Below, piece by piece: positions 4,609 through 28,939 of a stretch of DNA of 42,939 nt. The first letter of the stretch is position 1. The number at the start of each line of letters is the position of its first letter. Location of the stretch: positions 1-42,939 of the forward strand of contig JAFQHQ010000185.1 in assembly GCA_017397885.1 (NCBI GenBank), written 5' to 3'. A program made the translations under genes and the position numbers. This DNA is from Clostridia bacterium (GTDB taxonomy: Bacteria; Bacillota; Clostridia; UMGS1810). The notes below the pieces were generated by a model. That model searched no databases. It saw nothing but the letters and a program-made list of their open reading frames with translations, and was not told the DNA's origin.

Positions 4609-6867
4609 ATGAAAAAGATAAGTTTAAACGGAAAATGGAAACTCTATTTTTACAATCAACTTGAAAAAGATATTAAAAATCCATCGGAGCTTGGCTGTGA
4701 ACAATGCATAAAATGCAGTGTTCCCGGCAATGTTGAGCTTGATTTGTCAGCTGCAGGGCTTCTTCCTGAAGATTTGTATTTTGGCACAAACATGAAAGAA
4801 TGCGAAAAGTTTGAAACCTATGCATGGTGGTATGAAAAGGAATTTGAAATTGACAAATCCATACTTTCGGAAAAACTTTATCTGCACTTTAACGGAGTGG
4901 ATTGCATAGCCGAATATTTTTTGAACGGGGAAAAAATAGGTGAGAGTGAAAACATGCTCACAGAGCATGAATTTTGCATAGACGGTGTTAAAAGAGAAAA
5001 AAACATTCTTCATGTTAAAATTAATTCCTTTGTGCTTCGTGAACATGAGGAAGAATTTTCCGAAAGATCGCTTTTGATGAATCCGTTTTTTCATCAGAAA
5101 TCCGTTGAGCTTCGAAAAGCACCTCACATGCACGGATGGGATATTTTGCCCAGAGCCGTAAGTGCAGGAATATGGAGAGATGCAGAGCTTGTTTCAAAAG
5201 GTGATTTTGAATTCAGACAGTTTACATACATTCCCGTTAAATATGAGTACGGTAATATGCTTGTTTGTTTTTGCTATGACATTGCTTGCCCCTATGACAA
5301 GCTTAAAAACAGCAAAATCATCATAAAAGGCAGCTGCAAAGGCAGAAGTTTTGAGACAGAAAGCCTTTTGCAAACCCACGGAGGCAGAATTGAACTTTGC
5401 ATTGAAAATGCTCTTCTTTGGTGGCCCAAGGGTTATGGCGAGGCAAATCTCTATGATGTTAAAGCACAAATTGTATGCGACGGAAAGGTTGTTGCAGAAT
5501 ATGACTGCACAATGGGGCTTCGCACAATAAAACTTTTGAATTCATATGTTGCCGACAAAACAAACGGAAAATTTGCCTTTGAAATAAACGGCAAAGAGAT
5601 TTTTTGCCTTGGAACAAACTGGGTTGCCCTTGATGCCTTTCACAGCCGTGACAAGGAAAGATATGACAAAGCTCTTGCGCTTCTTGATGACATCGGATGC
5701 AACATGGTCAGAATGTGGGGCGGAAATGTGTATGAAGACACAGCTTTTTATGATTTTTGCGATTCACACGGCATCATGGTGTGGCAGGATTTTACCATGG
5801 CGTGCAATGCCTATCCACACTCTGAAAAATTTTTGAAAGAAATAGAAAAAGAAGCCGTTTTTATCATTAAAAAGCTTCGCAATCACGCTTCCCTAACCCT
5901 TTGGGCAGGTGACAACGAATGCGACAGCATGCTGACTGAAAGCATATGGACAGACCCAAATTCCAACATCATAACCCGTGATATTTTAAAAAGAGCGGTG
6001 TTTAATCATGACACATGGAAGCCATATCTTCCAAGCTCGCCCTATTACGGAAGCGAAGTTATGGAAAAAGGCGGAAAAATTCAGCCGGCGGAACAGCATG
6101 TCTGGGGACCGAGAGATTATTTTAAAAGTGATTTCTACAGTGAAAACGATGCTCACTTTATCAGTGAATGCGGCTATCACGGCATGCCTTGCAGGCAAAC
6201 CCTTGAAAAATTCCTTGAAAACAATGACATGAAGCCGGGAGTAATAACCGAAAACAATATTCTCCACTCAACCGATTGGAAAGGCTCCGACCACAGAGTG
6301 CGTCTTGTGTCCAATCAGGTTATTCAGCTTTTCTCAAAAGTTCCCGACAATATGGATGACTACATTCTTGCTTCACAAATATCTCAAGCGGAAGCAATGA
6401 AATATTTTGTGGAACGCATGAGAATAAACCGTCCGCAAAAGAGCGGAATTCTATGGTGGAACCTTGTTGACGGCTGGCCTCATGTGTCCGATGCGGTGGT
6501 TGATTATTACTTTGAGAAAAAACTTGCATATGATTATATCAAACAGAGTCAACAGCCATTTTGCATCATGATGGACGAAATACAAAACTGGAACAGCCGA
6601 ATTGTCGCTTCAAACAATACTCTTGAAAATGTGAATGGTGTTGTGAGGGTGTCCGACGGCGAAAGCAAAGAGATTCTCTTTAAAAAAGAATTTTCTGTTA
6701 TGCCAAACTGCAGTGAAGCTCTTGGCGAAATAAAGCTTTATTATTCGGAAAAAAGACTTTTTGTCATTGAGTGGGAAACCGACAAAGGCGATGGCTTTAA
6801 CCACTATATCAGCGGCGGTGTTCCGTTTTCTCTTGAAAAATATAAAAAATGGATTGAAATAATTTAA
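4609..6867 (+). CDS. Glycoside hydrolase family 2 protein, beta-mannosidase-like
   Basis: A 752-residue GH2 enzyme with no signal peptide, so probably cytoplasmic, removing non-reducing-end sugars from imported oligosaccharides. The N-terminal jelly-roll (about 1-190) begins LNGKWKLY and contains AWWYEKEF. The Ig-like middle domain (about 195-315) leads to the catalytic barrel with RMWGGNVYED and VWQDF. The candidate acid/base is Glu437 in LWAGDNECD and the nucleophile is Glu520 in FISECGYHGMP. These fit beta-mannosidases (which usually read W-x-G-N-N-E and SE-x-G-Y) better than beta-galactosidases or glucuronidases. It is somewhat shorter than the usual 820-890 residues, mainly at the C-terminus. 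It has its own promoter. Exact specificity is uncertain. Confidence 0.88.
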   Translation: MKKISLNGKWKLYFYNQLEKDIKNPSELGCEQCIKCSVPGNVELDLSAAGLLPEDLYFGTNMKECEKFETYAWWYEKEFEIDKSILSEKLYLHFNGVDCIAEYFLNGEKIGESENMLTEHEFCIDGVKREKNILHVKINSFVLREHEEEFSERSLLMNPFFHQKSVELRKAPHMHGWDILPRAVSAGIWRDAELVSKGDFEFRQFTYIPVKYEYGNMLVCFCYDIACPYDKLKNSKIIIKGSCKGRSFETESLLQTHGGRIELCIENALLWWPKGYGEANLYDVKAQIVCDGKVVAEYDCTMGLRTIKLLNSYVADKTNGKFAFEINGKEIFCLGTNWVALDAFHSRDKERYDKALALLDDIGCNMVRMWGGNVYEDTAFYDFCDSHGIMVWQDFTMACNAYPHSEKFLKEIEKEAVFIIKKLRNHASLTLWAGDNECDSMLTESIWTDPNSNIITRDILKRAVFNHDTWKPYLPSSPYYGSEVMEKGGKIQPAEQHVWGPRDYFKSDFYSENDAHFISECGYHGMPCRQTLEKFLENNDMKPGVITENNILHSTDWKGSDHRVRLVSNQVIQLFSKVPDNMDDYILASQISQAEAMKYFVERMRINRPQKSGILWWNLVDGWPHVSDAVVDYYFEKKLAYDYIKQSQQPFCIMMDEIQNWNSRIVASNNTLENVNGVVRVSDGESKEILFKKEFSVMPNCSEALGEIKLYYSEKRLFVIEWETDKGDGFNHYISGGVPFSLEKYKKWIEII

Positions 6868-7412
6868 ACGTAGTAGGGCTTCAAATTGGAGTTTGGCGCT
6901 GTGTTTAACACCGGGACATTGTAGGGCAGGGGCTTGCTCCTGCCGACAAAGTTCAACGAAACGAGCAAGCCCGCTTGCTACGCTCTGGTGTTAATTTCAT
7001 CTTCAATCAAAGCGACAAATTACAAATTAGCGGGGAGAAGGAATAATTATGTAGGGGAGGGGCTCCGCGCCCTCCCGGTGCGAAATCATCAATGTATACG
7101 GGAGGGCACAGAGACCCTCCCCTACGATATTATTGTGTTAAACAGAGCGATAAATTATTTTTAGGTGCTGATTTTTCACTAAATACCAAAGCGTTTTTGC
7201 ACTTTGCATTTTACACTTTGCATTGCTCTGATTGGAAATCCAATCAGAACGACAGATTCCAATTTATCGAAGTGTTTATAATGTCGGATTTGCAGGTAAC
7301 GGGCTTGCGTCATTCCACATTTTCGGCAGGAGCAAGCCCCTGCCCTACAATCTATTATTTCAAACACCCCGATAAATTTCAATCTAACGATGCTTATTAA
7401 CGGAGGAACCCT
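6868..7412. repeat. Gene-free stretch of nested inverted repeats (REP/MITE-like)
   Basis: No convincing gene lies in these 545 bases. A perfect 29-bp inverted repeat (6918-6946 and 7323-7351) encloses a second 27-bp inverted repeat with three mismatches (7051-7077 and 7099-7125). Two smaller hairpins also occur: AGCAAGC/GCTTGCT around 6963-6978 and an 8-bp perfect stem at 7228-7247. Each arm of the large repeats is itself roughly palindromic and GC-rich (GGGGAGGGG, GGGCAGGGGC), unlike the AT-rich flanks. GTAGGGGxGGGGCTC-type units of this kind are common between genes in gut Clostridia. The stretch probably splits the GH2 and GH20 genes into separate transcripts. Confidence 0.8.
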
Positions 7413-9317
7413 ATGACAAAATTATCATTTATAAACGCAGAAAAGTTAATGGACGGCATATGTGAAGTCTCCGACATTTTGAAATTCGAAATTGACGACA
7501 AAGCCCCAAACATTTATGTGACCGCAAAAAAATCGGAAGATAAAGGCTTGCTTCGAGTAGCTTTAAAAGGAAATCATGCCGCGGTTGAATATGATGATAA
7601 GGCTTCTTTTTTTCGTGGGCTTATGCTTCTTTGCAAAAATATGGCAGACGATTTTGAAATTTGTGAAAAAAGAAGCTTCAAAACAAACGGTGCTATGTTT
7701 GATATGTCACGAAATTCGGTGTTCAAGGTTGAAACCGTAAAAGAAATCATGAAATATATGGCACTTATGGGACTAAACATGTTCATGCTCTACACCGAAG
7801 ATACCTATGAGCTTGAAGGCTACCCGTATTTTGGTCATATGCGCGGAAGGTACACCAAAAAAGAAATCGGTCAAATGCAGGATTTTGGCGAAAAACTGGG
7901 GATTGAGCTTGTGCCGTGTATTCAGCTTCTTGCACATCTCGCCACAGCTCTCAAATGGGACGAATTTGCTCATATCCGTGATACACACGATGTTTTGCTT
8001 GCCGATAGTGAAGAAACCTACGCCTTTATAGACACAGTTTTTTCTAACCTTTCAAAAATGTACAAAAGCCGTCGTGTGCACATAGGTATGGATGAGGCGG
8101 CATTTCTCGGTCAGGGCAGATACCTTGACAAAAACGGATTTTGCGAGCAATCCGAAATTTTTTGCCGTCACCTTAACCGTTGTCGGAGCATAGCTTTGGA
8201 ATATGGTTTCAAGCCTATGATGTGGAGTGACATGTTTTTTGACATGGCAGGTGAATTTGGATACAGCTCCGATGCCGAATTTTCGGAAACTGTCAAAAAT
8301 GCAGTGCCTTCTGACATCAGTCAGGTCTATTGGTCATATGATTCTTTTGATGAAGCTGCCTATGAAGCAATGATTGAAAAGCACCGCGAAATAACCGACA
8401 ATGTGATTTTTGCGGGCGGAATATGGACATGGAGCGGACCGTGCCCCAAATATGCAAAAACAATTGCCGTCTCAAAAGCAGCACTTTCAACGTGCATAAA
8501 AAAAGGCGTGAGTGAGGTTTTTGCAACCGTGTGGCACAACGGTGCAGAATGTCCCCTTGTGCTTGCTTTGCCCGGACTCATGCTTTTTGCCCAAATGGAT
8601 TATACCGGCAAATTCGACCTTGATGCAGTCAAAGAAAACTTTGGATTTATCACGGGTGTTTGTGCCGATGATATTATAAATATGGAAATTGCAGATTATC
8701 CTGCAGGGGATGCCGACAAATCAAAGGTTAAAAACCCAAGCCGTTATTATCTTTACAATGACCCTCTTGCAGGTCTTTTGGACAAACATGCTCAAGGACT
8801 TGAGCTTTCCCGGTTTTACGGAAAAATAGGGGAGGAGTATGCCGAAAAAGGCACAAAAATCGGATTTTTTGCCGAAGCTTTTGAATATTACAAAGCTGTG
8901 GTAAATGTTTTGGAGCTTAAAGCGGATTTTGGTGTGAAGCTTAAAAAGGCATATGACGAAAAAGATATTCCCACACTTAAAAAGCTCTATGATTTAAGCA
9001 TTGAAACAGAAAAAAGAATTGACAATCTTAACGCCGTTCACCGCAGGTCGTGGCTTTTTTACAACAAGGCAAACGGCTTTGAGGTTCACGACATGATTTA
9101 CGGAGCGTTAAAATCAAGATTTCAAACGCTGAGGTTTCAGCTTGAGCGATTTTTTGCAGACACAAGCTATGTGATAGACGAGCTGTCGGCACAAAGACTT
9201 CCCTTTGCCAACATTCCCGAAGGCGAAAGCCCTGCGGTTTTTGTCAGTCCTCGCTTTACAAGGCTTTATTCGGCAAACGTTGTGGCAACTGTGTTTAATG
9301 ATATGTTTATAGGTTAG
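7413..9317 (+). CDS. GH20-like beta-N-acetylhexosaminidase, cytoplasmic
   Basis: A 634-residue protein without signal peptide. It has the GH20 layout: an N-terminal alpha/beta domain (about 1-85) and a TIM barrel from about residue 90 (FDMSRNSVFKVETVKEIMKYMALMGLN). The catalytic Asp-Glu pair is D227-E228 in HIGMDEA, then WSDM (271-274) and a late VWHNGAE. Canonical GH20 enzymes read H-x-G-G-D-E; here a Met replaces the second Gly and Ala follows the Glu, so this is a divergent group. A long helical C-terminus (about 450-634) follows. The expected reaction is release of terminal beta-linked hexosamine. GGAGG precedes the start. A second GH20-like gene (25930-27714) shares the same motif variant. 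Confidence 0.82.
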   Translation: MTKLSFINAEKLMDGICEVSDILKFEIDDKAPNIYVTAKKSEDKGLLRVALKGNHAAVEYDDKASFFRGLMLLCKNMADDFEICEKRSFKTNGAMFDMSRNSVFKVETVKEIMKYMALMGLNMFMLYTEDTYELEGYPYFGHMRGRYTKKEIGQMQDFGEKLGIELVPCIQLLAHLATALKWDEFAHIRDTHDVLLADSEETYAFIDTVFSNLSKMYKSRRVHIGMDEAAFLGQGRYLDKNGFCEQSEIFCRHLNRCRSIALEYGFKPMMWSDMFFDMAGEFGYSSDAEFSETVKNAVPSDISQVYWSYDSFDEAAYEAMIEKHREITDNVIFAGGIWTWSGPCPKYAKTIAVSKAALSTCIKKGVSEVFATVWHNGAECPLVLALPGLMLFAQMDYTGKFDLDAVKENFGFITGVCADDIINMEIADYPAGDADKSKVKNPSRYYLYNDPLAGLLDKHAQGLELSRFYGKIGEEYAEKGTKIGFFAEAFEYYKAVVNVLELKADFGVKLKKAYDEKDIPTLKKLYDLSIETEKRIDNLNAVHRRSWLFYNKANGFEVHDMIYGALKSRFQTLRFQLERFFADTSYVIDELSAQRLPFANIPEGESPAVFVSPRFTRLYSANVVATVFNDMFIG

Positions 9318-9630: not shown

Positions 9631-9662
9631 ATAATCTTATGGTTAAAAATTAAGTTTGCTGT

Positions 9663-11048
9663 TTAGTCATCGGCTTTTGACGTCTCTGCCACATATCTCC
9701 AAAAACAAAGCATAGGCATTTGTGTGCCGAAATCTATGAGTATGCGTTTCGGATCGGTGCCGGTCTGACCGCTTATGTATATCGGTGCTTTGAGCTCGTT
9801 TTGTGTTTGGATTTCTAAAGTATTTGAACGTATCAATACTTTTTCAATATTTTGTTTGCCGTTTGCATCTTCAATTTCTATTGGGTATTCATCAAGTGAA
9901 GCATTGTAATCATATAAGAATTCCGTAACATTAGAAAACTCAATTATGAGTTTTTTAGAATCCTTGACGGTCGCAGATGATATATCCGGAGCATTTACGG
10001 GCATTCCTTTGCTATACAAGACGTTTAGTACCTGGGATGCAAGTCTTTCGCCAAGCATAATTGCCGAAAGCTTACTGATATGAATAAAATCTGACATATG
10101 GACTGCGTCGATTGCCGGGAGAATATATGTGTTTGTTATCTTATGGGCAGCCAGACGCTGTGCTTCGCGGATTTCATCATATGAACGGCTGAGTCGTTCA
10201 TTTGGTGCAGTCCTTATCTGTCTGTTAAGCTGAAACGTAAAAAACGGCAAATCATGCATTGAAAAATCACTGCGAAACTGTTTGGTAAGCTTTTCGAAGC
10301 GCATGAGATATTCTTTGCATGACACTCCATCGCCGGCATCGGTGCATCCCTGATACCAAAGAACCGCTTTGAACCCGATATTTTTGCTCTTTAGTGCATT
10401 TTTCATTTTTAAGTAAAGGTCTCCGTTTTCGGCAACGAGCCATCTTGAAAGCGGAGAGCCACCCATTGCGGCGGGAATTAATCCTACCGGAATGCCGGTG
10501 GTCTTTTTTATTTTTTTGGCAAAAGAGAGAAACATGTTGTTTTTAGAATAATCATATTCATTAAAGGGGGCTGTGGCAATGTCCCAAAAATCCAGATTTC
10601 GAAGCACGTGTACCCCCGGCTCGGGTTCGTCGCAGACAGTCCCTCTGCCCATGCCTGCCGCATTGCTTTGACCGGCTATCAAAAAAACATCACCAACGCA
10701 AAAATGACGTATGTTGTTTCCTCGAAGCGGTTGTTCTACGCATAAATCGGGATTATACAATACAATATCCATGGTATATGGTCCGCCGCACGGCACATTA
10801 TTCACGCGAACGTGCCAGCTCATGTCTTCAACCGTAAGTCTGACCAAAGGAATGACGAGAGAACCGTCACATTCACTCATAATACGAACATACAGCATCT
10901 CGGTTGAAAAAGGTATTTCCTGCCATGTATCGTCGTCTGTGTTTTCTTCAAATATACCGCTTACATCAAAATCAGCAAATCCGTTTTGGTGTTGTATTAT
11001 TTCCCAGCACTGAGGGGAGGATGTTATTTTTATTTTTTGTACCTTCAT
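9663..11048 (-). CDS. Sialate O-acetylesterase-type SGNH hydrolase
   Basis: A 461-residue esterase of the SASA family (PF03629 type), without signal peptide and therefore probably cytoplasmic. The nucleophile is Ser128 in LIAGQSNAAGMG. The block II glycine is in AAMGGSPLSRW, WYQGCTDA (about 231-238) supplies the oxyanion-hole region, and Asp320/His323 in SDFIHISK complete the triad. Family members deacetylate sialic acids or acetylated plant and microbial sugars; the true substrate is not readable here. It is the last gene of the seven-gene array, 15 bases after the GH39 stop, and has a CCGGAGG ribosome site almost the same as that of the GH39 gene. Confidence 0.87.
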   Translation of the reverse strand: MKVQKIKITSSPQCWEIIQHQNGFADFDVSGIFEENTDDDTWQEIPFSTEMLYVRIMSECDGSLVIPLVRLTVEDMSWHVRVNNVPCGGPYTMDIVLYNPDLCVEQPLRGNNIRHFCVGDVFLIAGQSNAAGMGRGTVCDEPEPGVHVLRNLDFWDIATAPFNEYDYSKNNMFLSFAKKIKKTTGIPVGLIPAAMGGSPLSRWLVAENGDLYLKMKNALKSKNIGFKAVLWYQGCTDAGDGVSCKEYLMRFEKLTKQFRSDFSMHDLPFFTFQLNRQIRTAPNERLSRSYDEIREAQRLAAHKITNTYILPAIDAVHMSDFIHISKLSAIMLGERLASQVLNVLYSKGMPVNAPDISSATVKDSKKLIIEFSNVTEFLYDYNASLDEYPIEIEDANGKQNIEKVLIRSNTLEIQTQNELKAPIYISGQTGTDPKRILIDFGTQMPMLCFWRYVAETSKADD

Positions 11049-11063: not shown

Positions 11064-12437
11064 TTAATTGCATATAAGGTAAAAACTTCCTGACGGTAAT
11101 GTAAATTCTCCGGGATTTATATTTGATGCCTCAAGATGTCGGGTGTCATCGTTGATATAAACCGTCATATCGGAGCAGAGATTGGTTTCTATATGAACGG
11201 CATCCTTTGAAGTATTAGTGATTAATACGGCTTTTTTGTCACCGTTGAATGCCGCAAGAGTGTATATGCCGTTTTCACTGTTTACAGAGCTCTCTGCCCG
11301 GTTACCGAGCATATATAGCTTGTTAAACGCAGGAAATGCATAATAGAGTGGAAACGGTTCTCTGTTTATGGGATTGAACATTCCGTGATAATATGATGCG
11401 GAAACCTGTGCGTCATAATAACACAGGATTTTGGTTTTTGTATTTTGCATTGCACACATCATGGAAACTGTTTTTGCGGCGGCGAGAGATGTACCTTTTT
11501 GAGATATTGCAAGTTGTGAAGCTTCGAGTGGGTTGCCTCTGTCTTCACACACATTGTTCCATTCGTTTAGTTGAGTTTCTATATCACCATATCCAAGCTC
11601 GTTGAGACGTCGGTCAAGATATTCGGCACAGATAACGGTTCTGTCGGTTGTGAGATAGCTGTGCCATGAAAAGAAATCTATGGGAGCATCATGCTTTTTG
11701 ATATGTTCAAAAAAGCCTTCAAAAAAGTCAATAAAGTTGGAGCTTCGTCCGCTTGCATAGAGTTCATCATCAACCTTTTCGCACTTTATACCGAACTTTT
11801 CGGGATCGGAGAGAATATGACGGAAACCGCAGGTTGCATAGCCTCCAACTTTTATTTCATCCCCGAAAACCGATTTCAGATGTTTTGATGTTACGGTATA
11901 AAGCTCATAGTATTCTTCCTTTGTACCGTGCCACATTTGGTTTTCCGAGTTGTCTCTGCCGTTATCGGGTTCATTCCATATTTCCCAGTAGGTTATGTTA
12001 TAACGGAACCCGTTCGCCCATCCGTAGTTATAATGACGAATAATGTGTTCGCAGATTTTTGCCCATTTAAGGCTGTCTTTTGGCGGAAATATACGATATG
12101 CCTTTATGTAGTGATAATTCTCTATAGTTTCACCAAGTCGGAAAATAGGTTCGCAGTGATGTTTTATGAGATTTTCTATAAGCCAGTCAGTAAATGTAAA
12201 ATCATAGGATGCTTCGTCTTCCACATCGGCATTAAAATCTCTGAAAATATTATGAATATCCACAAAACGGTTGGCACCGTAAGCCCCACCAACATCGTGA
12301 AGTCTGGAATAGGGCATGCCTGCTTCGGAAACAAAGTGGAACATAGAATCGTTTACCCCCATAAAAGGAGGCTGACCTATTGCGTGCATGGGTTTGATTG
12401 TACCTGCATTTTTGTTGAAGTTATAGTTTATTTTCAT
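11064..12437 (-). CDS. Glycoside hydrolase family 39 protein
   Basis: A 457-residue (alpha/beta)8-barrel enzyme with no signal peptide. The acid/base is Glu156 in YWEIWNEPDN and the nucleophile Glu292 in IETQLNEWNN, both classical for GH39. The N-terminus (YSRLHDVGG) lines the active site, and the C-terminal 90 residues form the expected beta-sandwich. GH39 contains beta-xylosidases and alpha-L-iduronidases; with lyases of the heparinase fold next door, activity on a uronic-acid-containing oligosaccharide is worth considering, but sequence alone does not decide it. The start has a strong GGAGG site. It follows the SLH-like gene after a 94-base gap that contains an imperfect hairpin. Confidence 0.88.
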   Translation of the reverse strand: MKINYNFNKNAGTIKPMHAIGQPPFMGVNDSMFHFVSEAGMPYSRLHDVGGAYGANRFVDIHNIFRDFNADVEDEASYDFTFTDWLIENLIKHHCEPIFRLGETIENYHYIKAYRIFPPKDSLKWAKICEHIIRHYNYGWANGFRYNITYWEIWNEPDNGRDNSENQMWHGTKEEYYELYTVTSKHLKSVFGDEIKVGGYATCGFRHILSDPEKFGIKCEKVDDELYASGRSSNFIDFFEGFFEHIKKHDAPIDFFSWHSYLTTDRTVICAEYLDRRLNELGYGDIETQLNEWNNVCEDRGNPLEASQLAISQKGTSLAAAKTVSMMCAMQNTKTKILCYYDAQVSASYYHGMFNPINREPFPLYYAFPAFNKLYMLGNRAESSVNSENGIYTLAAFNGDKKAVLITNTSKDAVHIETNLCSDMTVYINDDTRHLEASNINPGEFTLPSGSFYLICN

Positions 12438-12531: not shown

Positions 12532-15066
12532 TCAATTAACAATAAATATGGAAAAGGGATCGAGCCATCTGTCATCAAAAACCAACTTGGTGCAATTGTC
12601 ACCGGCAACTTCATAAGAGTATAGCTCGTCTAAAGTGACAGTTTCCACCGTACGGGTTCTGTCGTTATAACGGAAGATGGAATAGAGGCTTGCCTTAATG
12701 GGCTTAATGTCACTCTCCTTCACGTTGGCAGGGTTAATGTTGGCATAGGCAAGATCCACAACGGGATTCCAGTTTTTGATTACGTTACAAAGTCGGATTT
12801 CTGCAACCTTGCCTGCTCCGCCGCCGTTTCCGCTGAAAATATAATTTCCGTCGGCGAGGGTGAGAGCACCTTTTTTATATACAAGCTCTGCCGCTTTCAC
12901 ATCTGATGTATTGCTTAAATAGCTTATTCTTATGAGGTCTCCGCCGGCAATATTCATTGAGGAAAAATAGTCGAGTGATTTTCCGTATACAACTCTTCCG
13001 GATGGGTTGTTTTTGTTGTACACGGTTACGGCCTCGATTTCATCGCCGTTGCTTTTTATGACCTGAGAAACATCGCCGACCATAAACAGTCTTGTATCAT
13101 CCGGCACACCTTCGGCGCCGAGACTGCCGTCATATCTCATAACAACATAATCGGCAACTTTGTCATTTTTGTCAAGACTGTATCCCTCGGAGGTGGCGGT
13201 ATAGTTGGTGCCGCTGGTGAGAGAAGAGCAAGTGAAAACGGAATAAAGGTCTTCGTTGTTTTCAATGGTTCCGTCGCTTGCCTGGTTGGGAATACGAAAA
13301 ACCTTTGTTGACGGATTGATAAAAACTCCTTCGCCAAATATTTCTGACCATTTTTTGTAGGTGATGTAAGAAAGGTTCTTGAGCTTGTCTTCACCGGTTT
13401 TGTAAATGTCTGCACCGCATTCGGTATCCATGAGCGTATCTCCCGGAAAATCAAGAGCTGTAATCAGTCCGTCGGCGCTAAGCTCATATCTTACAATGCC
13501 GAGTTCAACATTTGTGCCGATTTTGGGAATAGCCGAGTGCATATCGGCAAATGAATCATATGACTTGTTGTTAATCAGACATTTCTTATCCAAACCGTAT
13601 TGAACACTTATACCATCCTCGGTGAAAATTTTTACAATAAGGCTGTCGTCAAAGCTCTTTTTGATAAGCTTTGTCGCAAGTATAATTCCTGCAAGTCCGC
13701 CGGCATTTGCACCTTCGGATATATGCACTGCCGTGTTATATTCATCTGTTACCAAAGTTACAAAATTCCCCAAAAGTTCAGATGCTTCGCGGCTTATCCG
13801 AGATGTTATTTTAAAGGATTTTCCTTCGATTATAACCGAATATGTACTTACTTCTTCAATCTTTCCGGAAACTGTTTCCAAAAGCTTGACAATTTTATAG
13901 ATATTTCCGTTTATATCCTGATATATGTTGAGGATGTCTCCGACGGTGATGTCTGCAAGAGTAAGCTTTTTGCCGTCAGTGTCAAAAATTAATGTTGTAT
14001 CCTCAATTTTATATGTCATGCCTTGGCAAAAGATGGTTTCATTTGATTTGTTTATTCCCGAAACCTTCATTGCCTGACCGGATTCTATAATAACTATATC
14101 AGCTCCGTCGGAATAGATACCGTTATCAATAATTGTAACCTTTCCGCTTTCGGGCACTGCACCTTCTGCATTGGGAAAATGTTCACAGCCGTTGTAAAAT
14201 ATGTCTGCTTTTACAGATATTTTTGCAGATTTTGTGCGTTTGTCTTTGTCAATATACTCATACACATTGTCTGAAAAGCAGGCTTCATTATCCGGATAAA
14301 GCTCGGTCACATGACTTTTGTCATCAACGACAGCACAAATAACTCTGTCTGTTTTTCCTTCTTCTCTGACATATGCTGTGATATATCTGCCAAAGAGTTC
14401 TTCGGCAGGGGTGTCGCAGTTATATTCAATGCCGTCAATCGAAACTCTGCCGTTGTCGACAGTTTTAGCACTGATTGAATAGATTCCTGCCGCATCTGCA
14501 ATACCGTATATTGTATAAATGCCGTGTTTATCGTTTAATATGGAATTGCCTATGTAAGGGTATTGAGCATTATATGAGGTCAGATCGGCGGTTATGTAAT
14601 TGTAAATAAGGACATATGCTTGTTCGTAGGTGAGGGTAACCGAAAGGTCGGTTCCCACACCTTTGAATAGCTTTAGATTTGTGCCGGCTTTCAGCAATTC
14701 AAAATCATTGATGTTGTCCGAACGAATTCCAAGCAGTTTGACACAAAGAATAAGAGCATCCTTGAAGGATATATTGTTTGAGGGATGAAAATAATAGTTT
14801 GTGTCAGAAAATATCCCCGCCATTGCAAGCTCGTCTCTGCTCAGTTGTTCGTAGTAAGAGTTTTTGATAAGTATGTCCACAAAGGTATCACGGGATATGT
14901 ACTCCGTTCTTTTTGATGTAGCATCGTCAAATCCAAGCCCCACAAGAAGCGCATTTGCATCGTCAAAATATTCGTTTGCCGAAGCAGAGGTACTCTGCGC
15001 AGGGACTGCATTTATCAACAGAACATAGAGCAATATCATGCTTATTATTTTTTTTATGTTTCTCAT
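12532..15066 (-). CDS. Secreted protein with N-terminal SLH-like region
   Basis: An 844-residue protein with a signal peptide (positive MRNIKK, hydrophobic stretch to about 22, cleavage near SASA-NE). Residues about 33-185 resemble degenerate SLH repeats: EYFDDANALLVGLG, AGIFSD..YFHPSNNISFKDALILCVKLLGI and VTLTYEQAYVLIYNYI. The rest is beta-rich with repeated short domains and no catalytic motif that I recognise. It lies 28 bases downstream of the large lyase gene with an AAAGGAGT ribosome site, so it is co-expressed with it. A wall-associated scaffold or glycan-binding protein is plausible; an undescribed enzyme is not excluded. Confidence 0.75.
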   Translation of the reverse strand: MRNIKKIISMILLYVLLINAVPAQSTSASANEYFDDANALLVGLGFDDATSKRTEYISRDTFVDILIKNSYYEQLSRDELAMAGIFSDTNYYFHPSNNISFKDALILCVKLLGIRSDNINDFELLKAGTNLKLFKGVGTDLSVTLTYEQAYVLIYNYITADLTSYNAQYPYIGNSILNDKHGIYTIYGIADAAGIYSISAKTVDNGRVSIDGIEYNCDTPAEELFGRYITAYVREEGKTDRVICAVVDDKSHVTELYPDNEACFSDNVYEYIDKDKRTKSAKISVKADIFYNGCEHFPNAEGAVPESGKVTIIDNGIYSDGADIVIIESGQAMKVSGINKSNETIFCQGMTYKIEDTTLIFDTDGKKLTLADITVGDILNIYQDINGNIYKIVKLLETVSGKIEEVSTYSVIIEGKSFKITSRISREASELLGNFVTLVTDEYNTAVHISEGANAGGLAGIILATKLIKKSFDDSLIVKIFTEDGISVQYGLDKKCLINNKSYDSFADMHSAIPKIGTNVELGIVRYELSADGLITALDFPGDTLMDTECGADIYKTGEDKLKNLSYITYKKWSEIFGEGVFINPSTKVFRIPNQASDGTIENNEDLYSVFTCSSLTSGTNYTATSEGYSLDKNDKVADYVVMRYDGSLGAEGVPDDTRLFMVGDVSQVIKSNGDEIEAVTVYNKNNPSGRVVYGKSLDYFSSMNIAGGDLIRISYLSNTSDVKAAELVYKKGALTLADGNYIFSGNGGGAGKVAEIRLCNVIKNWNPVVDLAYANINPANVKESDIKPIKASLYSIFRYNDRTRTVETVTLDELYSYEVAGDNCTKLVFDDRWLDPFSIFIVN

Positions 15067-20639: not shown

Positions 20640-23600
20640 TTAATATTCTATGGCGGTCCCAAGCGGTATAATTCCGCTTGAGATATTCCACAAAAAAACT
20701 TTGATTTTAGAGCCGGATGTAACTTCGGCAGAAAGTAAGCGGGTTGCGTAGGGCAAAATACGCCCGCTTGTTTCCATTGAAACATCCGTAAGTTCATTAT
20801 CGCTGTATTTTGCCAACACAAGCATATAATTGCTGAAGCAAAGGTCACTGTTGTTTTTAAGTGTCACCTCAGCGTTGACATATCCCGAGGATTCGGAAAT
20901 AATGATATCCGAAATGACAAGAGGTTCTTTTTTTAGCCGATAAGATATCGATATGTAAGGTTTCCACTGTGAATAACTTGATTCGTTGGCAAGCACTGTT
21001 GTAGACGGCTCATTTTGCACTATCATAAATCCAAGCTTTGTTTTGCCCTCTGAAATGAGCTTGTTTATGTGAGCTGTTAAATCAAAGGAGATATATCCGC
21101 CGTTTCCTATGTTGCCCGCATATTCGCCGAGAAGCGATTTGGCAGGCGGAAGGCTTTTGAAGGGGGTAACACCCGGAGTGAAATCTCCGTCAACAGAACA
21201 TAGCGATATATTGAGATTACCGCCGCAAAACAAACTGAATTTTCCATTTGTGATTTCGGTGTCCTTTAAACTGCTGATATCCACTGTGCAGTAATAGTGA
21301 CGATATACCCCGGAGCTGTAGAGATGAGGCAACCATCCGCTGTCGGCTTGCGAAAGGGTACCTGTGTGTGATGCATCATTCGTTTCATACATGGCAGAAG
21401 TAAACTTAGTGTAGTTCAGAGTTGTTTGACGTATGGTTCCTTCCGGGGGCAACCGAGTGAGTTTTACAACGTAATATGCACTTCGTCCGTTGCCCGATAC
21501 GGTGATTATTGCTTTGAATTCTCCGTTTTCGGTATATCGGATATCCACATCATATCCCTTTGGATTATCAACGGTTATTTCGGGCTCTTTATCAGCAAAC
21601 TTTTCAAAAACCAACTCATAATTATAGTTCATGGAATTAAATCCGGCTATGGGAGTTCCGTCCACATATATGGCATCAACGGTGGGTTTTGCAATCATGG
21701 CTTCGTCGGTATTCCAATCGGAAATGGGTACAAAGTCTGATATATCCTCCGGCATTTCAAACTCTGTTACAACGGGAGTGAATTCTGCCATTAATTGAAG
21801 AGTTGTTATGTTTTCGGCACTGAGGGCTAACTTGCGATAGCCCGGATAAGACTTTTGCTCCGCTGTCTGCGGTGAGGTGGGAAGTTTTTCGGCAGCCATT
21901 TCAAATAGCCTTATATCTGTGTTTGCATATATCTTCACAGCGACTTTTTTGCCGTTGTTTGTAAGAATCGCAGTGTTTTCGGATGTGATTTCTATTTGCG
22001 CCGGAGTATTAAAAGACCAGAATATTGTTGAAGGCGATTTCATTTCGGCTTCGTCCTGAACAACAATCCGTTCTCTGTTTTTGTGAACCTTCATGCCGCG
22101 TTTGTATGATTTGACATAGTCTTTGTACACGCCCGAAAGGTCGCTGATTGCATAGGCACAGGCATCATTGCTTTCAAAGATGTCTATAACTGCCGTTTCG
22201 CTGACATCCTGTCCAACCTTTTCGGATGGATTTATAACAAGACATCCTGCTCCTTCGGGACGCTTTTCATACCAATTCCATCTTCTTCCGTTTTGTTCAT
22301 TTTCCCAATAACCCGGATAGTCGTAGTTGCCTGCTCCTATGGGTGTTATAAATCTTTCGCCAAATGCATCGAGGCAAAAAGCCCCCGAAACTGCATCATT
22401 GTGACCGGTGGCTGTGGCACATCCGACATACATTGCGGCATAAAAACCATAGTCAATGTTGTGACTGTTTCTAAACACTGCCACATTCTGAGCCTTTGAA
22501 ACCGGCGAAAGAAGTCTGTCATACGGAAGCTTTTCGGCATCTTCCGTGTTGTCAAGCTCTCCTTTGTCATACCAGAGTAAGGCTTTTGCGCAATCACCTT
22601 TTGCAAAACTTTCGGAAAGAAGTTTCATTAGCTTTTGATTGTTTGAATGTTTTGCGGCAAAATAGAGAAAATTTGTATCGTAATATGCTTTTGATGGGGA
22701 AGTATCGCCAAAGGCAAAGGGACCTGCACCATGCATGTAAAGCGGATAGTAAGCTGTGGTTGCAAATCCGGGATATTTATCATAGTCATACATTGTACCC
22801 AGCGATGAATTGATTGCAGACAGCATATTTATCGCTTTGCCTGTGGTGTAACCATAATAGCCTACAGGTTCTTCATGACCTCCGTTTTCGCCCACCATTT
22901 CAAAGTATGGTTGGATATTATACAGGTTATTGTATATAATGAATGCCGAGTATTCGGGATATACCGGTGCAATTGCAAGCGCGGCAACGGCAAGATTGCT
23001 GTTGTTGTATACACAATGATTATAACTTCCGCGCCAGCACCATATATTCATATTGTCGTTTTCTGCACGGAGAGCGGAAAGCTCGGACGGATTTTTGTAG
23101 TATCTGTAGGCAATATCCAGGCTTTTTTCCTTTATTGTTTCTACAGCCCACGTCTTTTGCTCGTCAGATAAATAATCAAAAAGCCAGTCATAGCATATTG
23201 CTATTGATGCCGCGCTTTGAGTGTTATCAAGCTGAGCCGCTGCTGTCCATTTTGAAATGGTTTGCATGTTAGCAAATTCTGCGAGGGCGCGGTTTAGATA
23301 ACGTGTATCTTCGCTGACAAAATAGACTGTCATAAGATTGATAATTCTTGACTCCACGGCAATGTGACTTTGGCTTACACCGTTTTGAGTTGAAACAGGC
23401 GTAAGCTCCAAAAGCTTGTTTGCATCGGAAAGAACCTTATTATATAACATCAGCGAATATTCGTCGCCGGATTCTATATTTGATTTTATCTGCTCAAGCT
23501 TGTCATAAGATGCGTGTATATACGGATGCTTGACATCTACCGATAAAAAGCGTTCTTCAATGTCTTCGAGAATCATCGATTCCGACGGAGCATCAATGTG

Positions 23601-23687
23601 AGATGCTCCGTAAACAAAACAGGAAGGGGCGATAGTGCCAAGCAAAATGATCACAACCAGTAGTACGCCCATTATCCTGCTTTTCAT
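20640..23687 (-). CDS. Secreted heparinase II/III-like polysaccharide lyase
   Basis: A 1015-residue protein with signal peptide (1-27, ending FVYGA). The lyase toroid (about 53-360) and beta-sandwich (390-640) are very closely related to those of the neighbouring 1842-residue protein. Both share the runs RAENDNMNIWCWRGSYNHCV, HEEPVGYYGYTTGKA and NWYEKRPEG; here the HxD motif is GHNDAVSGAF (428-437). A cadherin-like domain (667-745) follows, then a DNRLRE-like module (755-917) and a C-terminal module ending KIKVFLWNISSGIIPLG. There is no SLH domain, so this copy is probably released or held only through glycan binding. GGGAGTGAT precedes the start. It is 16 bases upstream of the large lyase gene, so the two are tandem duplicates in one transcript. 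Confidence 0.88.
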   Translation of the reverse strand: MKSRIMGVLLVVIILLGTIAPSCFVYGASHIDAPSESMILEDIEERFLSVDVKHPYIHASYDKLEQIKSNIESGDEYSLMLYNKVLSDANKLLELTPVSTQNGVSQSHIAVESRIINLMTVYFVSEDTRYLNRALAEFANMQTISKWTAAAQLDNTQSAASIAICYDWLFDYLSDEQKTWAVETIKEKSLDIAYRYYKNPSELSALRAENDNMNIWCWRGSYNHCVYNNSNLAVAALAIAPVYPEYSAFIIYNNLYNIQPYFEMVGENGGHEEPVGYYGYTTGKAINMLSAINSSLGTMYDYDKYPGFATTAYYPLYMHGAGPFAFGDTSPSKAYYDTNFLYFAAKHSNNQKLMKLLSESFAKGDCAKALLWYDKGELDNTEDAEKLPYDRLLSPVSKAQNVAVFRNSHNIDYGFYAAMYVGCATATGHNDAVSGAFCLDAFGERFITPIGAGNYDYPGYWENEQNGRRWNWYEKRPEGAGCLVINPSEKVGQDVSETAVIDIFESNDACAYAISDLSGVYKDYVKSYKRGMKVHKNRERIVVQDEAEMKSPSTIFWSFNTPAQIEITSENTAILTNNGKKVAVKIYANTDIRLFEMAAEKLPTSPQTAEQKSYPGYRKLALSAENITTLQLMAEFTPVVTEFEMPEDISDFVPISDWNTDEAMIAKPTVDAIYVDGTPIAGFNSMNYNYELVFEKFADKEPEITVDNPKGYDVDIRYTENGEFKAIITVSGNGRSAYYVVKLTRLPPEGTIRQTTLNYTKFTSAMYETNDASHTGTLSQADSGWLPHLYSSGVYRHYYCTVDISSLKDTEITNGKFSLFCGGNLNISLCSVDGDFTPGVTPFKSLPPAKSLLGEYAGNIGNGGYISFDLTAHINKLISEGKTKLGFMIVQNEPSTTVLANESSYSQWKPYISISYRLKKEPLVISDIIISESSGYVNAEVTLKNNSDLCFSNYMLVLAKYSDNELTDVSMETSGRILPYATRLLSAEVTSGSKIKVFLWNISSGIIPLGTAIEY

Positions 23688-23758: not shown

Positions 23759-25867
23759 TTAATTGTCTGATGTTGCTACCTGCCTGATTGGTTTAAGCAT
23801 TGAATCGGCAGACCACAAAAATGCTTTGATTTTGTTATTTCCTGTAGCTGTGTAGCTATGGGAAATCATATCGCTCGAATCGGTGCCTTGCACACCGGTA
23901 ACAGAGACGAGCTCGTCCGAATTATACTCGGCTATGATGAGAACGCAGTTTGCGGCATTTGAACCTGCATATACCGAGGCTGTGTATACCAAGCCTTCAT
24001 TTGTGAGAATTATTTCGTTATTTATTGTTGTAAATGACAGCGAAATATTTTCGCTCTGAATAACACTGCCGGCATAAAGTCCGGTGATATCAATCCGATA
24101 GTTTTTTGCACCTTCAAGCTCTTTGGAAGGATTGATAATGATTTTTCTCTGAGCCGGAACAAATGTGATTTCACTTTCTGTAAGTGATATGGTTTGTGCA
24201 TCTGTTGTATTTGTAAGAACAATGTTTTCTGCATTGATTTGTGTCACATCTGCTGTGAAAATCAGCTCTATATTTTTGTCACATTCAAAATCGGTTTCGT
24301 TGTTTTTCGGATCGGATGATTTCAGTGCAATGTATACTTCGTTTTCTGTTGTTACACTGAGATTGGATCTCCAGCTTGACCATGCTGTTTCATTGGCAAG
24401 ATTGGTTGTGCTTGCATCGGTTTGTTTGACCATAAATTTCAGGATTGTGCCGCCTGCAAGAAGTGTTTCTCTTGCATAGTCGGTAATGTCTATTTGTGCG
24501 TAGCCTCCATTGCCCATGGCTTTGGAAAATGTTTGGAAAACATCTCCGGGTATGGGAAGCTCGGCATATTGGGTAGTGCCGGGTACGAAATCTCCGTTGA
24601 GTTTATACAGAGATATATTAATATTTCCGTTGCAGAAAAGATTGTATGTTACATTTGAAATAGATTTGCCTGCCAGCTCACTGATATCTACTGTGCAGTA
24701 ATACTCTCTGTATGATGAACCGTTATAGAGATGAGGAAGCCAGCTGCCGGAATTGTTGCTTACTCCTGTGCCGGCAGGTTCATCGGTATCATACATTGCA
24801 GAGCTGAATTTTGATGATGAAATTGTAAGTTGTGTTGTACCGGTTATTGTGGTAAAGGAATAAGAAGCCTGCTCGCCGATGACACTTCCGTAAACATCGG
24901 TGATTACATCGCTTATTACCAATGTATATTCCTTAAAGGGCTTTTTGGGATATGAAACAGTTATAGTTTTTTCGTTAACCGATATGTCCTCATCTGAGAG
25001 TGCCAGCTTTTCTCCCTCGCACCACAGTGACACTGTGTCGGTGTTTACCATAACTTCGTTGAGAGGGTTGTTGTATGACACAGATATATCATCGGTATAA
25101 ACACATTCTCCGCTTGGATAGCTTTCTGCGGCAAGGGGCTGCATTTCTTCTGTCTCAATTGTAAGGAGCGGTCTGTAACTCTCGGTTGCACTCTCTTTTG
25201 TTTCAAGATTTGCATAGTAATTATATTTGGTTCCGAGAATTGCCGCAAAGCTGATAACGCTGTCAGACTCGGACAAGGAGTATTTTTTGATTAAATCGGT
25301 AATATCATATTCATATGTGGTTGGTGTGGCAGGCATGTTGTTTCGGCTTGCAATAAGCACATCGGGTTTTATTTTTGCATCTGTCAAACCGATAGCTGTG
25401 GTTTTCAGGGGGGCATTTTTGTAGGTGAGACCGTCCTCTGTCCATGAATTGTCATCCACCTTCCAAAATCCCAATCCGCCGGCGCCGTCTGCCTGGTTTG
25501 AAAGTGCGTAGGTGAGCTTTAGAGTTGCCTTTTTTACATATTGACTGTCAAAATCAAAGGTGTTAGCAAGATCAAACTTAAAATAAGCAAGATAACCGGG
25601 ACACTGGGTGTATATTGCATTACCTCCGCAACCGAAAAAATCTTCCGTAGCAAAATACTGCGAACCGAATTTAACGGATGCGTCATTGCCTGTGTTTGTT
25701 GATAAAACGGTTGAACCGCTCCATCCGGCACCGCCGACCGAAGCATCGGCAATGGGTGAAAGAGTGTAGACAGATGTGCCCTGTGCATGAGTGGGAATAA
25801 CTGTCATTGCTCCGACTGTTGTCAGCATAAGAGCCAACACTAAAACTTTTGCAACAATTTTTTTCAT
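23759..25867 (-). CDS. Secreted multi-module DNRLRE/Ig-like binding protein
   Basis: A 702-residue protein with signal peptide (1-28, ending THAQG). A canonical DNRLRE domain (about 33-237) starts with SPIADASVGG and contains AYFKFDL, KATLKLTY and YEYDITDLI. It is followed by a Big_5-like domain (245-340), a second DNRLRE-like module (345-507) closely related to those in both lyases, another Big_5-like domain (511-614) and a C-terminal module (617-698, KIKAFLWSADSMLKPI). No catalytic motif is seen. DNRLRE modules are found on secreted polysaccharide-degrading enzymes and some bind glycans. It lies 62 bases downstream of the second GH20 gene and has an ACGGAGG ribosome site. Confidence 0.84.
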   Translation of the reverse strand: MKKIVAKVLVLALMLTTVGAMTVIPTHAQGTSVYTLSPIADASVGGAGWSGSTVLSTNTGNDASVKFGSQYFATEDFFGCGGNAIYTQCPGYLAYFKFDLANTFDFDSQYVKKATLKLTYALSNQADGAGGLGFWKVDDNSWTEDGLTYKNAPLKTTAIGLTDAKIKPDVLIASRNNMPATPTTYEYDITDLIKKYSLSESDSVISFAAILGTKYNYYANLETKESATESYRPLLTIETEEMQPLAAESYPSGECVYTDDISVSYNNPLNEVMVNTDTVSLWCEGEKLALSDEDISVNEKTITVSYPKKPFKEYTLVISDVITDVYGSVIGEQASYSFTTITGTTQLTISSSKFSSAMYDTDEPAGTGVSNNSGSWLPHLYNGSSYREYYCTVDISELAGKSISNVTYNLFCNGNINISLYKLNGDFVPGTTQYAELPIPGDVFQTFSKAMGNGGYAQIDITDYARETLLAGGTILKFMVKQTDASTTNLANETAWSSWRSNLSVTTENEVYIALKSSDPKNNETDFECDKNIELIFTADVTQINAENIVLTNTTDAQTISLTESEITFVPAQRKIIINPSKELEGAKNYRIDITGLYAGSVIQSENISLSFTTINNEIILTNEGLVYTASVYAGSNAANCVLIIAEYNSDELVSVTGVQGTDSSDMISHSYTATGNNKIKAFLWSADSMLKPIRQVATSDN

Positions 25868-25929: not shown

Positions 25930-27714
25930 TTACACATCATTTTGTAGTAATTCTTCAAGCTCGGTTCTTCTTAGACTAAGCTGATTCATGAAATTTTCTG
26001 AACCTTTTTCATAATTTCTGATGCACCAAAGCTTGTAATATTCATTTTTAATTTCATCGCAAAGCTCAATGAGTTCATTAATTTTGTTTTTTGAAAATTT
26101 TTCGCCTATTCTCAGTTTGCAAAGCTCGGATGAAAGTATCACACAGCGGGAATTTAACAGTATTTCTCTTTTCAATTGTTTATCAAAATCAACAGCTTCA
26201 ATATCGGTTATCACCTTTTTTACATATGCGGTGACATTATCAAAATAGAATACATCTCCCGAATCCTTGAGGTCATAGAGATGGTTGAAGCGTGAATTTG
26301 ATATTGGTGTTTTAAATAACTGACCGCACATGCTTCCCACATGAACTCTCTCAGGTTCAAGAAGATAATAATTTGCCATACGATACATCAGTCTTGAAAT
26401 GTTTTTACCGCCAAAGAGCGCTTCATCGGTAAATCTTTCGGCATTTCTGATGAAATCCGCCTTAAAGCTTTCGCCGTCTTGCTCTTTTCCCACGTTCCAC
26501 CCGTACTGACCTGCAAGTGCACACGGAACGGCACTCCATACACCAAAGTGAGGATGTCCTTCTTCACAGCCCCAATCGGTTATCATGATGCCTTTTGCAC
26601 CGTATTTTAGCCCGACTTCGGCGGCGGTGCGGATGTTGAAGGTTGTCACATCGGCTCTGCCCGTAAAACTAAGGTGGGTGTTGCATGAAGGACACACATA
26701 GAAATTGAGTCCGGCATCACGGTATTTTATACAATGCTCCGCCATACGCTGAGATTGAATAAGCTCATATCCCCATTCAAGCACAACGCTGTCCTTAGGG
26801 ATCATATGGTAAACCTCTTCGTCGCCGTAAATCATGTCCGACCAAAACATTACCTTTTTGTTGTATTTGGATTTTGTAAGATTATCCAGCTTTTGGAGCC
26901 ATTGCATAAACGCAGCGGCTTTGCCGTGAACCCGGCAATATTCCTCCATCTGAAATTTTCCAAGTCCATATGCTTCGTCAAGCCCAACGTTGACATATTC
27001 AGATGAAAAATGGGGCAGAAGAGATGAATAAACATTATCGATAAAATCAAGACTTTCGTCAATGAGCGGATTTATTGTACCGCTGTTTGTGTTTTCGTTT
27101 CCCAAAGCGAGGGGACGAAATTCTTCGTGTTTGAGCCATGGGGTCAAATGTCCGAAGGAATTTTGATTTGGAACAAAATCTATGTAACGCTCCCTGCAAT
27201 ATTTGTCGAGTTCCTTTATATCATTGCAATCAAGGCAGTCAAAATCTTCGGTATATTTGGGGTAGGAGCTGTATTTGTAACATTCTCCTTCCATATAAAG
27301 CTGAATTTCATTGTATTTAAGATATGATAAAAAATCTATAATCTTTTTTACGGTCTCCGGTTTTGGCATTCTGCATCTGCTGATATCAAGCATATATGCA
27401 CGTCGCTCAAATTGAGGCTTGTCATGAACCTCACAACAACATACTTTTTCCTTGCCCTGTTTCAAAAGCTGAAAAAGAGAAGTGAAAGCTCTGTATTTGC
27501 CTTCATCACAGGATGATGTAACACAAATCCCGTCGGAATTGATTGTCAAAAGATATTCTTCCTTGGACATATCCGGATTGTTTATTACGTTGATATCAGA
27601 GTTCCCGTCTTTATACATATAAAACAGCTCATTGTGATTTCTGCAGTTGTAGTTACATTTTAAAACATATACTGAATTTTCAAATATGGCATTTTGCGGC
27701 TTGGGGAAAATCAT
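25930..27714 (-). CDS. GH20-like beta-N-acetylhexosaminidase, first gene of the lyase array
   Basis: A 594-residue protein without signal peptide. A small N-terminal domain (1-95) is followed by a GH20 barrel: AYMLDISRCRMPKPETVKKI, VPNQNSFGHL, the Asp-Glu pair D246-E247 in VNVGLDEAYG, then WSDM, EWGYE and a late ITDWGCEEGH. The GLDEA motif parallels GMDEA in the plus-strand GH20 gene, so both belong to the same divergent branch, although they are otherwise quite different. AAGGAG precedes the start. It is the promoter-proximal gene of the array and faces the AraC regulator. The exact sugar released is unknown. Confidence 0.82.
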   Translation of the reverse strand: MIFPKPQNAIFENSVYVLKCNYNCRNHNELFYMYKDGNSDINVINNPDMSKEEYLLTINSDGICVTSSCDEGKYRAFTSLFQLLKQGKEKVCCCEVHDKPQFERRAYMLDISRCRMPKPETVKKIIDFLSYLKYNEIQLYMEGECYKYSSYPKYTEDFDCLDCNDIKELDKYCRERYIDFVPNQNSFGHLTPWLKHEEFRPLALGNENTNSGTINPLIDESLDFIDNVYSSLLPHFSSEYVNVGLDEAYGLGKFQMEEYCRVHGKAAAFMQWLQKLDNLTKSKYNKKVMFWSDMIYGDEEVYHMIPKDSVVLEWGYELIQSQRMAEHCIKYRDAGLNFYVCPSCNTHLSFTGRADVTTFNIRTAAEVGLKYGAKGIMITDWGCEEGHPHFGVWSAVPCALAGQYGWNVGKEQDGESFKADFIRNAERFTDEALFGGKNISRLMYRMANYYLLEPERVHVGSMCGQLFKTPISNSRFNHLYDLKDSGDVFYFDNVTAYVKKVITDIEAVDFDKQLKREILLNSRCVILSSELCKLRIGEKFSKNKINELIELCDEIKNEYYKLWCIRNYEKGSENFMNQLSLRRTELEELLQNDV

Positions 27715-27759
27715 TTGCTTCTCCTTAATTAAAAGAATATAAAATATTATTGTAATTAA

Positions 27760-27787: not shown

Positions 27788-27950
27788 TACATTTATTTCA
27801 AACAAAAACTTTCATTTTTCAAACAAAACTGTTTTTTGCATTATGATTTTCACTTTTTTCGTATTCAAAATTAATATCGGGTTTGTTATATATGTCAATA
27901 AAATTTATAATGAATTAGAAAGAAATTTTTGATAAATATATCAATAAATA

Positions 27951-27979
27951 TTGACTTTTTATTATTTTCAAAATATAAT
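27951..27979 (+). promoter_or_regulatory. Sigma-A promoter for the AraC regulator gene
   Basis: TTGACT (27951-27956) and TATAAT (27974-27979) lie 17 bases apart. The third TTTCAAACAAAA repeat lies about 33 bases downstream of the -10 box, inside the transcribed leader. Confidence 0.75.
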
Positions 27980-28036
27980 CATACTGTAAGATAAAATCAG
28001 AAATCTTGTATTTTCAAACAAAACCGAGGTGATGAT

Positions 28037-28939
28037 ATGTCTAAATTGGAAGAAATTAAAAAGAATCATGGAATTGACAAATCAATAGCATCCAGCCATG
28101 CATTGGTTTATTCATATACCAAGCACGCAAAATCCCCCATAACTTTTGCACACTATACCCATGAACACACCATTTCGTCACGGGTAATGTATAACAAAAA
28201 TAACGACCACTGCTCTCTTTTTATTTTTCAAACCGGAAAATTCGGATTTATTTTTGACAATGCAGTTTACAATTCTTCATATGGCAATGCGTTGATAATC
28301 AGAAACAACGAAAAGTACACGGCGTGTTTTTATACTGATTCTTATCTTGATTATTATGAAATTCAAATTCCGTTGGAGTTTTTTGGCGATTACAACGGTA
28401 CAGATATGTTCTATTCTCTTTTTTATGAAAGGGAAAACGGCGAAAGAAATATGGTTAGTTTAGACAGATTCAACTGTGATGTGATGATGAGCAAATTGCG
28501 TGAAATAGAAAACGTTATAAACTCTCAAAATTCCAATGCCGATATTCTTGTATATGCACATATCATACAGATTATGGGCATAATACATTCACAGTATAAT
28601 CTAAACAGAAGTATGCCGGTAATTAAAATTCCGCAGAAATTGAAAACGGCAGTGGATTATATACATCAGAATTATCTCACGCTTATTGGGGTTGATGAGG
28701 TATCACACCATTGCAATATAACCGGAACCTATCTGGCAAGAATGTTTAAGGATTTTATGCTTTGTACACCAAACGAATATATAACCAATCTGAGGATATC
28801 TCATGCGAAATATTTGCTTTCGAACGGCAAGAGTCTCACCGATGCATGCTTTGGTTCCGGATTCAGCAATTATACATATTTTATTACAAAATTCAAATCG
28901 GTCACCGGGATTACCCCCTCGAAATTTAAAAAGAAGTAA
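28037..28939 (+). CDS. AraC family transcriptional regulator of the lyase array
   Basis: A 300-residue regulator with a cupin-like sensor domain (about 25-150) and a C-terminal double helix-turn-helix (about 200-300). The first HTH is IGVDEVSHHCNITGTYLARMFKDFM and the second ends SLTDACFGSGFSNYTYFITKFKSVTGITPSKF, the classical AraC signature. GAGGTGATG precedes the start. Divergent placement and the repeats in the shared region suggest that it activates the seven-gene polysaccharide array and controls itself. The ligand is probably a breakdown product of the target glycan (inference). Confidence 0.92.
   Translation: MSKLEEIKKNHGIDKSIASSHALVYSYTKHAKSPITFAHYTHEHTISSRVMYNKNNDHCSLFIFQTGKFGFIFDNAVYNSSYGNALIIRNNEKYTACFYTDSYLDYYEIQIPLEFFGDYNGTDMFYSLFYERENGERNMVSLDRFNCDVMMSKLREIENVINSQNSNADILVYAHIIQIMGIIHSQYNLNRSMPVIKIPQKLKTAVDYIHQNYLTLIGVDEVSHHCNITGTYLARMFKDFMLCTPNEYITNLRISHAKYLLSNGKSLTDACFGSGFSNYTYFITKFKSVTGITPSKFKKK

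Follow-up and report, generated by a model that had tools for sequence, protein, structure and literature searches.

A putative surface glycan-degradation locus with PL35-like lyases and a recurrent SLH protein pair in a Clostridia genome

What is the role of a locus that combines polysaccharide lyases, glycoside hydrolases and SLH proteins, with no transporter beside them? We addressed this question for positions 4609 to 28939 of a 42,939-nucleotide contig of a gut Clostridia bacterium (JAFQHQ010000185.1, assembly GCA_017397885.1); the whole contig is referred to as the window. It belongs to a metagenome-assembled genome (MAG) of 3.06 Mb with a completeness of 77%, which limits every genome-wide absence given below. 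All ten genes that the initial annotation had described as contiguous are present as open reading frames (ORFs) at their positions, as judged from ORF coordinates and Pfam (Table 1). Two of them encode lyases (lyase 1 and lyase 2), and one encodes an SLH protein, named c1 here. About 40 such loci occur in the MAG, with about 50 lyase genes between them, and we consider it likely that this locus is a single unit of an extensive, repeated system for glycan degradation at the cell surface.

Domains were called with Pfam, membrane spans with a crude hydropathy scan, and structures were modelled with AlphaFold2 (AF2); a signal-peptide-like start denotes a hydrophobic N-terminus in the sequence scan. 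Beyond the window, the DNA examined comprised the stretches around lyase, c1, GH88 and ABC genes. L-numbers are locus labels, and G001 is a sister genome.

PL35-like lyases and their metal site

The lyases had been expected to group with polysaccharide lyase (PL)-like clades, and both fall next to PL35. A profile of 43 paralogues from the window genome matched GAGases II and VII and a PL35 chondroitinase (8khv, 8khw and 9o3q; PMC12088678) at 1e-107 to 1e-115 over near full length; the values for the next families (PL17 8bdd, PL33 8r75, PL15 3a0o and PL21 2fuq) were 5e-28 or weaker. The AF2 model of the lyase 2 domain is an (alpha/alpha)6 toroid with an antiparallel beta-sheet, nearest to PL35; its Z scores to the PL35 set are 36.0 (8khv), 35.8 and 33.2, compared to 27.9 or less outside PL35. 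Judged by profile for both catalytic domains, and also by the modelled fold for lyase 2, they are PL35-like. Different from the characterized enzymes, the window lyases are multimodular (SLH, CBM96-like and CBM32-type modules), come from Clostridia rather than Bacteroidetes and share about 22% identity with them in the structural alignment.

In GAGase II, the catalytic triad consists of Asn192, Tyr246 and His401, and Mn2+ is coordinated by His403, Asp405, Asp421 and His457; alanine mutants of the Mn2+ ligands are inactive or almost inactive (PMC12088678). When these residues were mapped, all 43 paralogues had the equivalents of Asn192 and Tyr246, and 33 of them, including both window lyases, also had that of His401; the N, Y, H triad of these two lyases is intact. 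The metal site is different. All four ligands are replaced in the two window lyases, by D/V/P/A and D/V/P/N, whereas 17 of the 43 paralogues retain the complete set. The replacements occurred jointly in two clades, 'D-V-P/A' (7 rows, including both window lyases) and 'N-N-N' (10 rows), each set apart by a branch whose support is 100/100. Since the ligands are needed in GAGase II and are absent in the window clade, this clade would be either metal-independent or altered in function; owing to the lost site, we term the window lyases PL35-like and not PL35 GAGases. Ten lyase paralogues carry N, Q, Y or G at the position of the catalytic His and keep Asn and Tyr. They include L016 9009-10895, L038 1605-3428 and members of L031, L022, L028, L011 and L023, and may be binding-only or mechanistically altered.

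As the initial annotation had proposed, one lyase is predicted to be SLH-tethered: lyase 1 has both a signal-peptide-like start and three SLH repeats, the anatomy of an SLH-anchored surface protein. Its F5/8C domain resembles CBM32 of the alginate lyase AlyQ. Dp0100 of Defluviitalea phaphyphila, an alginate lyase with CBM32 and CBM96, is likewise a multimodular clostridial protein of the same fold class; however, its catalytic domain is PL39 (Z 23-25 to the lyase 2 model, compared to 36 for PL35), and the available part of its report describes no c0 unit or c1 partner (see below; PMC9971899).

PF16332 matches the MAG at 45 places, and our own lyase profile detected 52 genes, some of them fragments, across 37 lyase loci. 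Median identity among the 43 full lyase domains is 27%. The expansion is strongest in the genus and the family of the window organism. A precedent is MAG052 from Tibetan pig, an uncultivated Clostridia genome in which, according to the accessible part of its report, 39 PL35 genes occur together with GH20 and other host-glycan enzymes, as in the window genome; MAG052 is known there by counts alone, whereas loci, anchor pair, fusion and metal site are described here (PMC7785962). In yak faeces, PL35 was the most abundant PL family (PMC7547465). Two further gene clusters adjoin the lyases. Members of cluster c4 (about 620-720 aa, five copies; e.g. L010 4512-8406, L012 11702-15771 and L020 9918-11774) gave no Pfam match in the two scanned, save one sub-threshold. 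Cluster c7 (L011 7580-8869, L041 and L045) is a neutral-ceramidase-like gene adjoining GH88-type genes in three loci.

The c0-c1 SLH protein pair

Clustering of the genes that neighbour the lyases brought out two recurrent partners, c0 and c1. The 'SLH-like protein' of the initial annotation is c1; its SLH nature stands, but its role as one half of this pair had been missed. c0 has about 550 aa; besides a signal-peptide-like start and three SLH repeats, it contains a beta region and a spacer. c1 contains a degenerate SLH triple at residues ~28-178, followed by about 660 residues of small beta domains, and it matches no Pfam family other than SLH. In its AF2 model (pLDDT 82.6), the SLH part reaches Z 11.6, and residues 328-397 resemble an S-layer self-assembly domain (Z 8.0). 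Foldseek with whole c1 returned only meaningless long matches, which have no bearing on whether the fold is new. The G001 ortholog is 98% identical.

The gene immediately upstream of c1, in the same orientation, is c0 for 19/19 c1 genes of the window genome's lyase loci with a readable upstream gene, and for 8/14 of its further c1 genes. The same order was found for 17/21 c1 genes of other genomes from five family-level groups, including the window organism's own family; this is not a random sample, because these loci were chosen for strong c1 matches. The two genes are separated by -17 to +32 bp. Upstream of c1 in three loci (the window, L039 and L042) stands a lyase gene that contains the c0 unit, so that c0 still precedes c1. 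About 40 divergent c1 copies occur in the one genome, and 23/40 are located within 10 kb of PF16332 matches, a zone covering 19% of the genome; the enrichment assumes uniform and independent gene placement. In other families, the pair adjoins GH10, GH36, GH20C, GH106-type, CBM9 and deacetylase genes and AraC regulators, and, different from the window genome, also ABC importer genes. Within the class, at least 15 family-level groups have full-length c1 (E <1e-100).

In the open-licence literature, we found no description of an SLH pair like c0-c1. We tentatively propose that it is an undescribed pair conserved across Clostridia families, which may act as a SusC/SusD-like capture or docking unit at the Gram-positive wall; its copies would diverge with their loci, hold SLH-less lyases and binding proteins, and be usable as a locus marker. 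Like SusC/SusD, it is a divergent two-gene surface pair that recurs with variable enzymes and regulators. However, c0 and c1 are SLH-bearing wall proteins, c1 has no TonB-dependent outer-membrane barrel (Pfam, AF2), and the sequences examined gave no evidence of import by the pair. c0-c1 is not a member of SusC/SusD, and is likened to it only for its recurrence as an adjacent pair in glycan loci.

Gene content, transport and catabolism

The remaining enzymes of the locus are listed in Table 1. Signal-peptide-like starts are present in c1, both lyases and the 702-aa binding protein, and absent from every glycoside hydrolase (GH) of the locus and from the esterase. The binding protein has modules in common with both lyases, and shares 38.5% identity with residues 40-413 of lyase 1. 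The GH20C-type enzyme retains the IGMDEA motif of 5a6b, and the nearest relatives of the GH39 protein in the PDB comparison are a glucosidase and beta-xylosidases. AraC-type genes are also recurrent neighbours of lyases in other loci.

Table 1. Genes of the locus and domains of the two lyases (positions in the window)
Feature	Position	Strand	Evidence
GH2, beta-mannosidase-like	4609..6867	+	PF22666 4.6e-33; PDB GH2 9nfe 1e-171; beta-mannosidase 5n6u 5e-94
GH20 of GH20C type (exo-beta-hexosaminidase)	7413..9317	+	PF18088 2.4e-40; 5a6b 7e-101
SASA-type carbohydrate esterase	9663..11048	-	PF03629 8.8e-41; 9ega 3e-14
GH39	11064..12437	-	PF01229 1.4e-15; 5z3k 1e-18; beta-xylosidases 1e-10
c1, 844 aa, secreted, degenerate SLH triple and small beta domains	12532..15066	-	Pfam, AF2
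Lyase 1: Big_5/DNRLRE/Big_5, c0 unit with three SLH, PL35-like lyase, F5/8C	15095..20623	-	Pfam SLH, DUF4962, F5/8C, Big_5
F5/8C domain, lyase 1 (residues 1720-1837)	15113..15466	-	PF00754 2.4e-15; 7d29 3e-25
PL35-like catalytic domain, lyase 1 (residues 1007-1639)	15707..17605	-	Profile, triad mapping
Three SLH repeats, lyase 1 (residues 783-974)	17702..18277	-	Pfam SLH 1.5e-31
c0 N-terminal region fused into lyase 1 (residues 427-766)	18326..19345	-	c0 profile E 4.4e-18
Lyase 2: secreted PL35-like lyase, C-terminal DNRLRE module, no SLH	20640..23687	-	DUF4962
Catalytic domain, lyase 2	21642..23546	-	AF2 pLDDT 93.7, pTM 0.90
Secreted binding protein: CBM96/DNRLRE and Big_5	23759..25867	-	CBM96 4.5e-15
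Divergent GH20	25930..27714	-	PF00728 6.4e-17; 8bbl 3e-17 (remote)
AraC-family regulator, divergent from lyase operon	28037..28939	+	HTH_18 2.4e-18

No protein with four or more transmembrane segments is encoded in 4609-28939. The absence of a transporter, claimed earlier, thus stands for the neighbourhood, but it does not set this locus apart, as the arrangement is genome-wide: linked ABC, MFS or PTS transporters are missing here and in almost every other lyase locus of this genome. In this, these loci differ from Gram-positive polysaccharide utilization loci, with which the window locus shares clustered enzymes and an AraC regulator. In the MAG, SBP_bac_1 matched once and BPD_transp_1 three times; two of the latter matches belong to the only sugar-type ABC importer found, which is CUT1-like and includes a lipoprotein (L085). 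A relative of similar size has 46 BPD matches, compared to 3 here, and the ABC permease count of the sister MAG is equally low. GPH-type (MFS_2) carriers were considered as the main importer and rejected; genome G000 has one copy. An MFS-like gene beside two GH88-type genes (L044 262-1521) is a candidate importer of unsaturated uronides, and the L085 set is a candidate carrier.

The locus genes include no GH88 unsaturated uronyl hydrolase or sulfatase by Pfam, different from glycosaminoglycan utilization loci. The earlier claim that GH88/GH105 is lacking holds only locally and not as a distinguishing trait, as about 18 GH88/105-type hydrolases are encoded elsewhere in the genome. Four KDPG aldolases, too, are all encoded elsewhere; unsaturated uronates could therefore be consumed. 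Sulfatases, absent from the locus as claimed, are scarce genome-wide, with three domain matches, of which one is strong; this near-absence argues against sulfated glycosaminoglycans.

Three genes outside the locus were also noted in the window. An RpiR-type regulator with a SIS domain (29435-30367) lies just downstream of the AraC gene, one ORF (33465-35618) encodes IspH (LytB) fused to S1 domains, and a SpoIIE homologue (38546-41038) suggests an endospore-forming lineage.

Proposed function and alternative explanations

Surface cutting followed by cytoplasmic trimming, the scheme of the initial annotation, appears likely in outline, given PL35-like lyases with an intact triad and GHs without signal peptides. 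At the wall, c0 would retain binding modules and lyases through its SLH repeats, and c1 may do likewise. There the lyases would cleave a uronate polymer by beta-elimination, without the Mn2+ site of the characterized PL35 enzymes; Asn would neutralize the carboxylate, with His and Tyr as base and acid. Short products would be imported by carriers encoded elsewhere, cytoplasmic enzymes would strip acetyl, hexosamine and mannose- or xylose-like residues, and the GH88/105-type hydrolases and KDPG aldolases would consume the unsaturated uronate. Conservation of gene order, also expected earlier, is partial: the modules are repeatedly found together, but the complete set of ten genes was seen only in the window genome and the nearly identical G001, which has the same gene order as the window and 97-98% identity where compared.

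By the gene content, a uronate- and hexosamine-containing, possibly acetylated glycan fits the two GH20s, the SASA esterase and the CBM96/CBM32-type modules. The founding member of CBM96 binds alginate (PMC9971899), and the CBM96-type modules and the AlyQ-like CBM32 suggest uronate-rich ligands. An unsulfated, acetylated heteropolysaccharide that contains uronate and hexosamine is the probable substrate. As its source, a microbial exopolysaccharide or capsule is our leading guess, a little short of an even chance, and a plant glycan is improbable. Host hyaluronan (HA) or chondroitin, which would make this a glycosaminoglycan locus, is unlikely, if somewhat less so than a plant source. PL35 GAGases do degrade HA, chondroitin sulfate (CS) and heparan sulfate (PMC12088678, PMC11262172), the genome encodes GH20 enzymes, GH88-type hydrolases and KDPG aldolase, and a close relative is attributed to goat cecum. 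However, sulfatases are almost absent genome-wide, and HA or CS would need neither a mannosidase-like GH2, GH39 and an acetylesterase nor about 50 divergent lyases.

Several points weigh against the proposed surface system. With all four Mn2+ ligands gone from both window lyases, their predicted activity is not assured. Only 5/52 lyase genes of the MAG carry their own SLH; the others would have to be held at the wall by other means. The carriers proposed for import are candidates in a MAG that is 77% complete, and activity, substrate and localisation are predictions. The window lyases might no longer be depolymerases but uronate epimerases or glycan-binding toroids that arose after metal-site loss. 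The clade-specific replacement of all four ligands would agree with this, as would human dermatan sulfate epimerase 1 (6hzn), which has the same fold (Z 23.3). PL35 is nevertheless far closer in sequence and structure, the triad is retained in all seven members of the window clade, and these lyases are borne on secreted, CBM-bearing proteins; we regard such a change as quite improbable. For the pair, c0 and c1 may be ordinary S-layer or wall-architecture proteins that provide attachment alone, with no specific capture or docking role. This is possible, albeit doubtful; the SLH triple and self-assembly-like small domain of c1 agree with it, and some c1-like genes are solitary, with neither c0 nor lyase (L093, L096 and L098). 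On the other side stand the roughly 40 divergent copies, their enrichment near lyases, the enzyme genes that adjoin the pair elsewhere among the families and the c0-lyase fusion; such copy number, enrichment and fusion are more than a single structural S-layer would need.

The main interest of the locus lies in the conserved SLH pair, its fusion to a lyase and the loss of the metal site, more than in the missing transporter. What the metal does in this fold can be tested directly with the PL35-like clades that have the triad and lack the Mn2+ ligands. In Bacteroidetes, the SusC/SusD pair serves to locate glycan loci; to our knowledge, no comparable marker exists for Gram-positive gut bacteria. 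The c0-c1 pair could fill this gap, and would allow numerous uncharacterised lyases and surface proteins to be sorted according to their loci.

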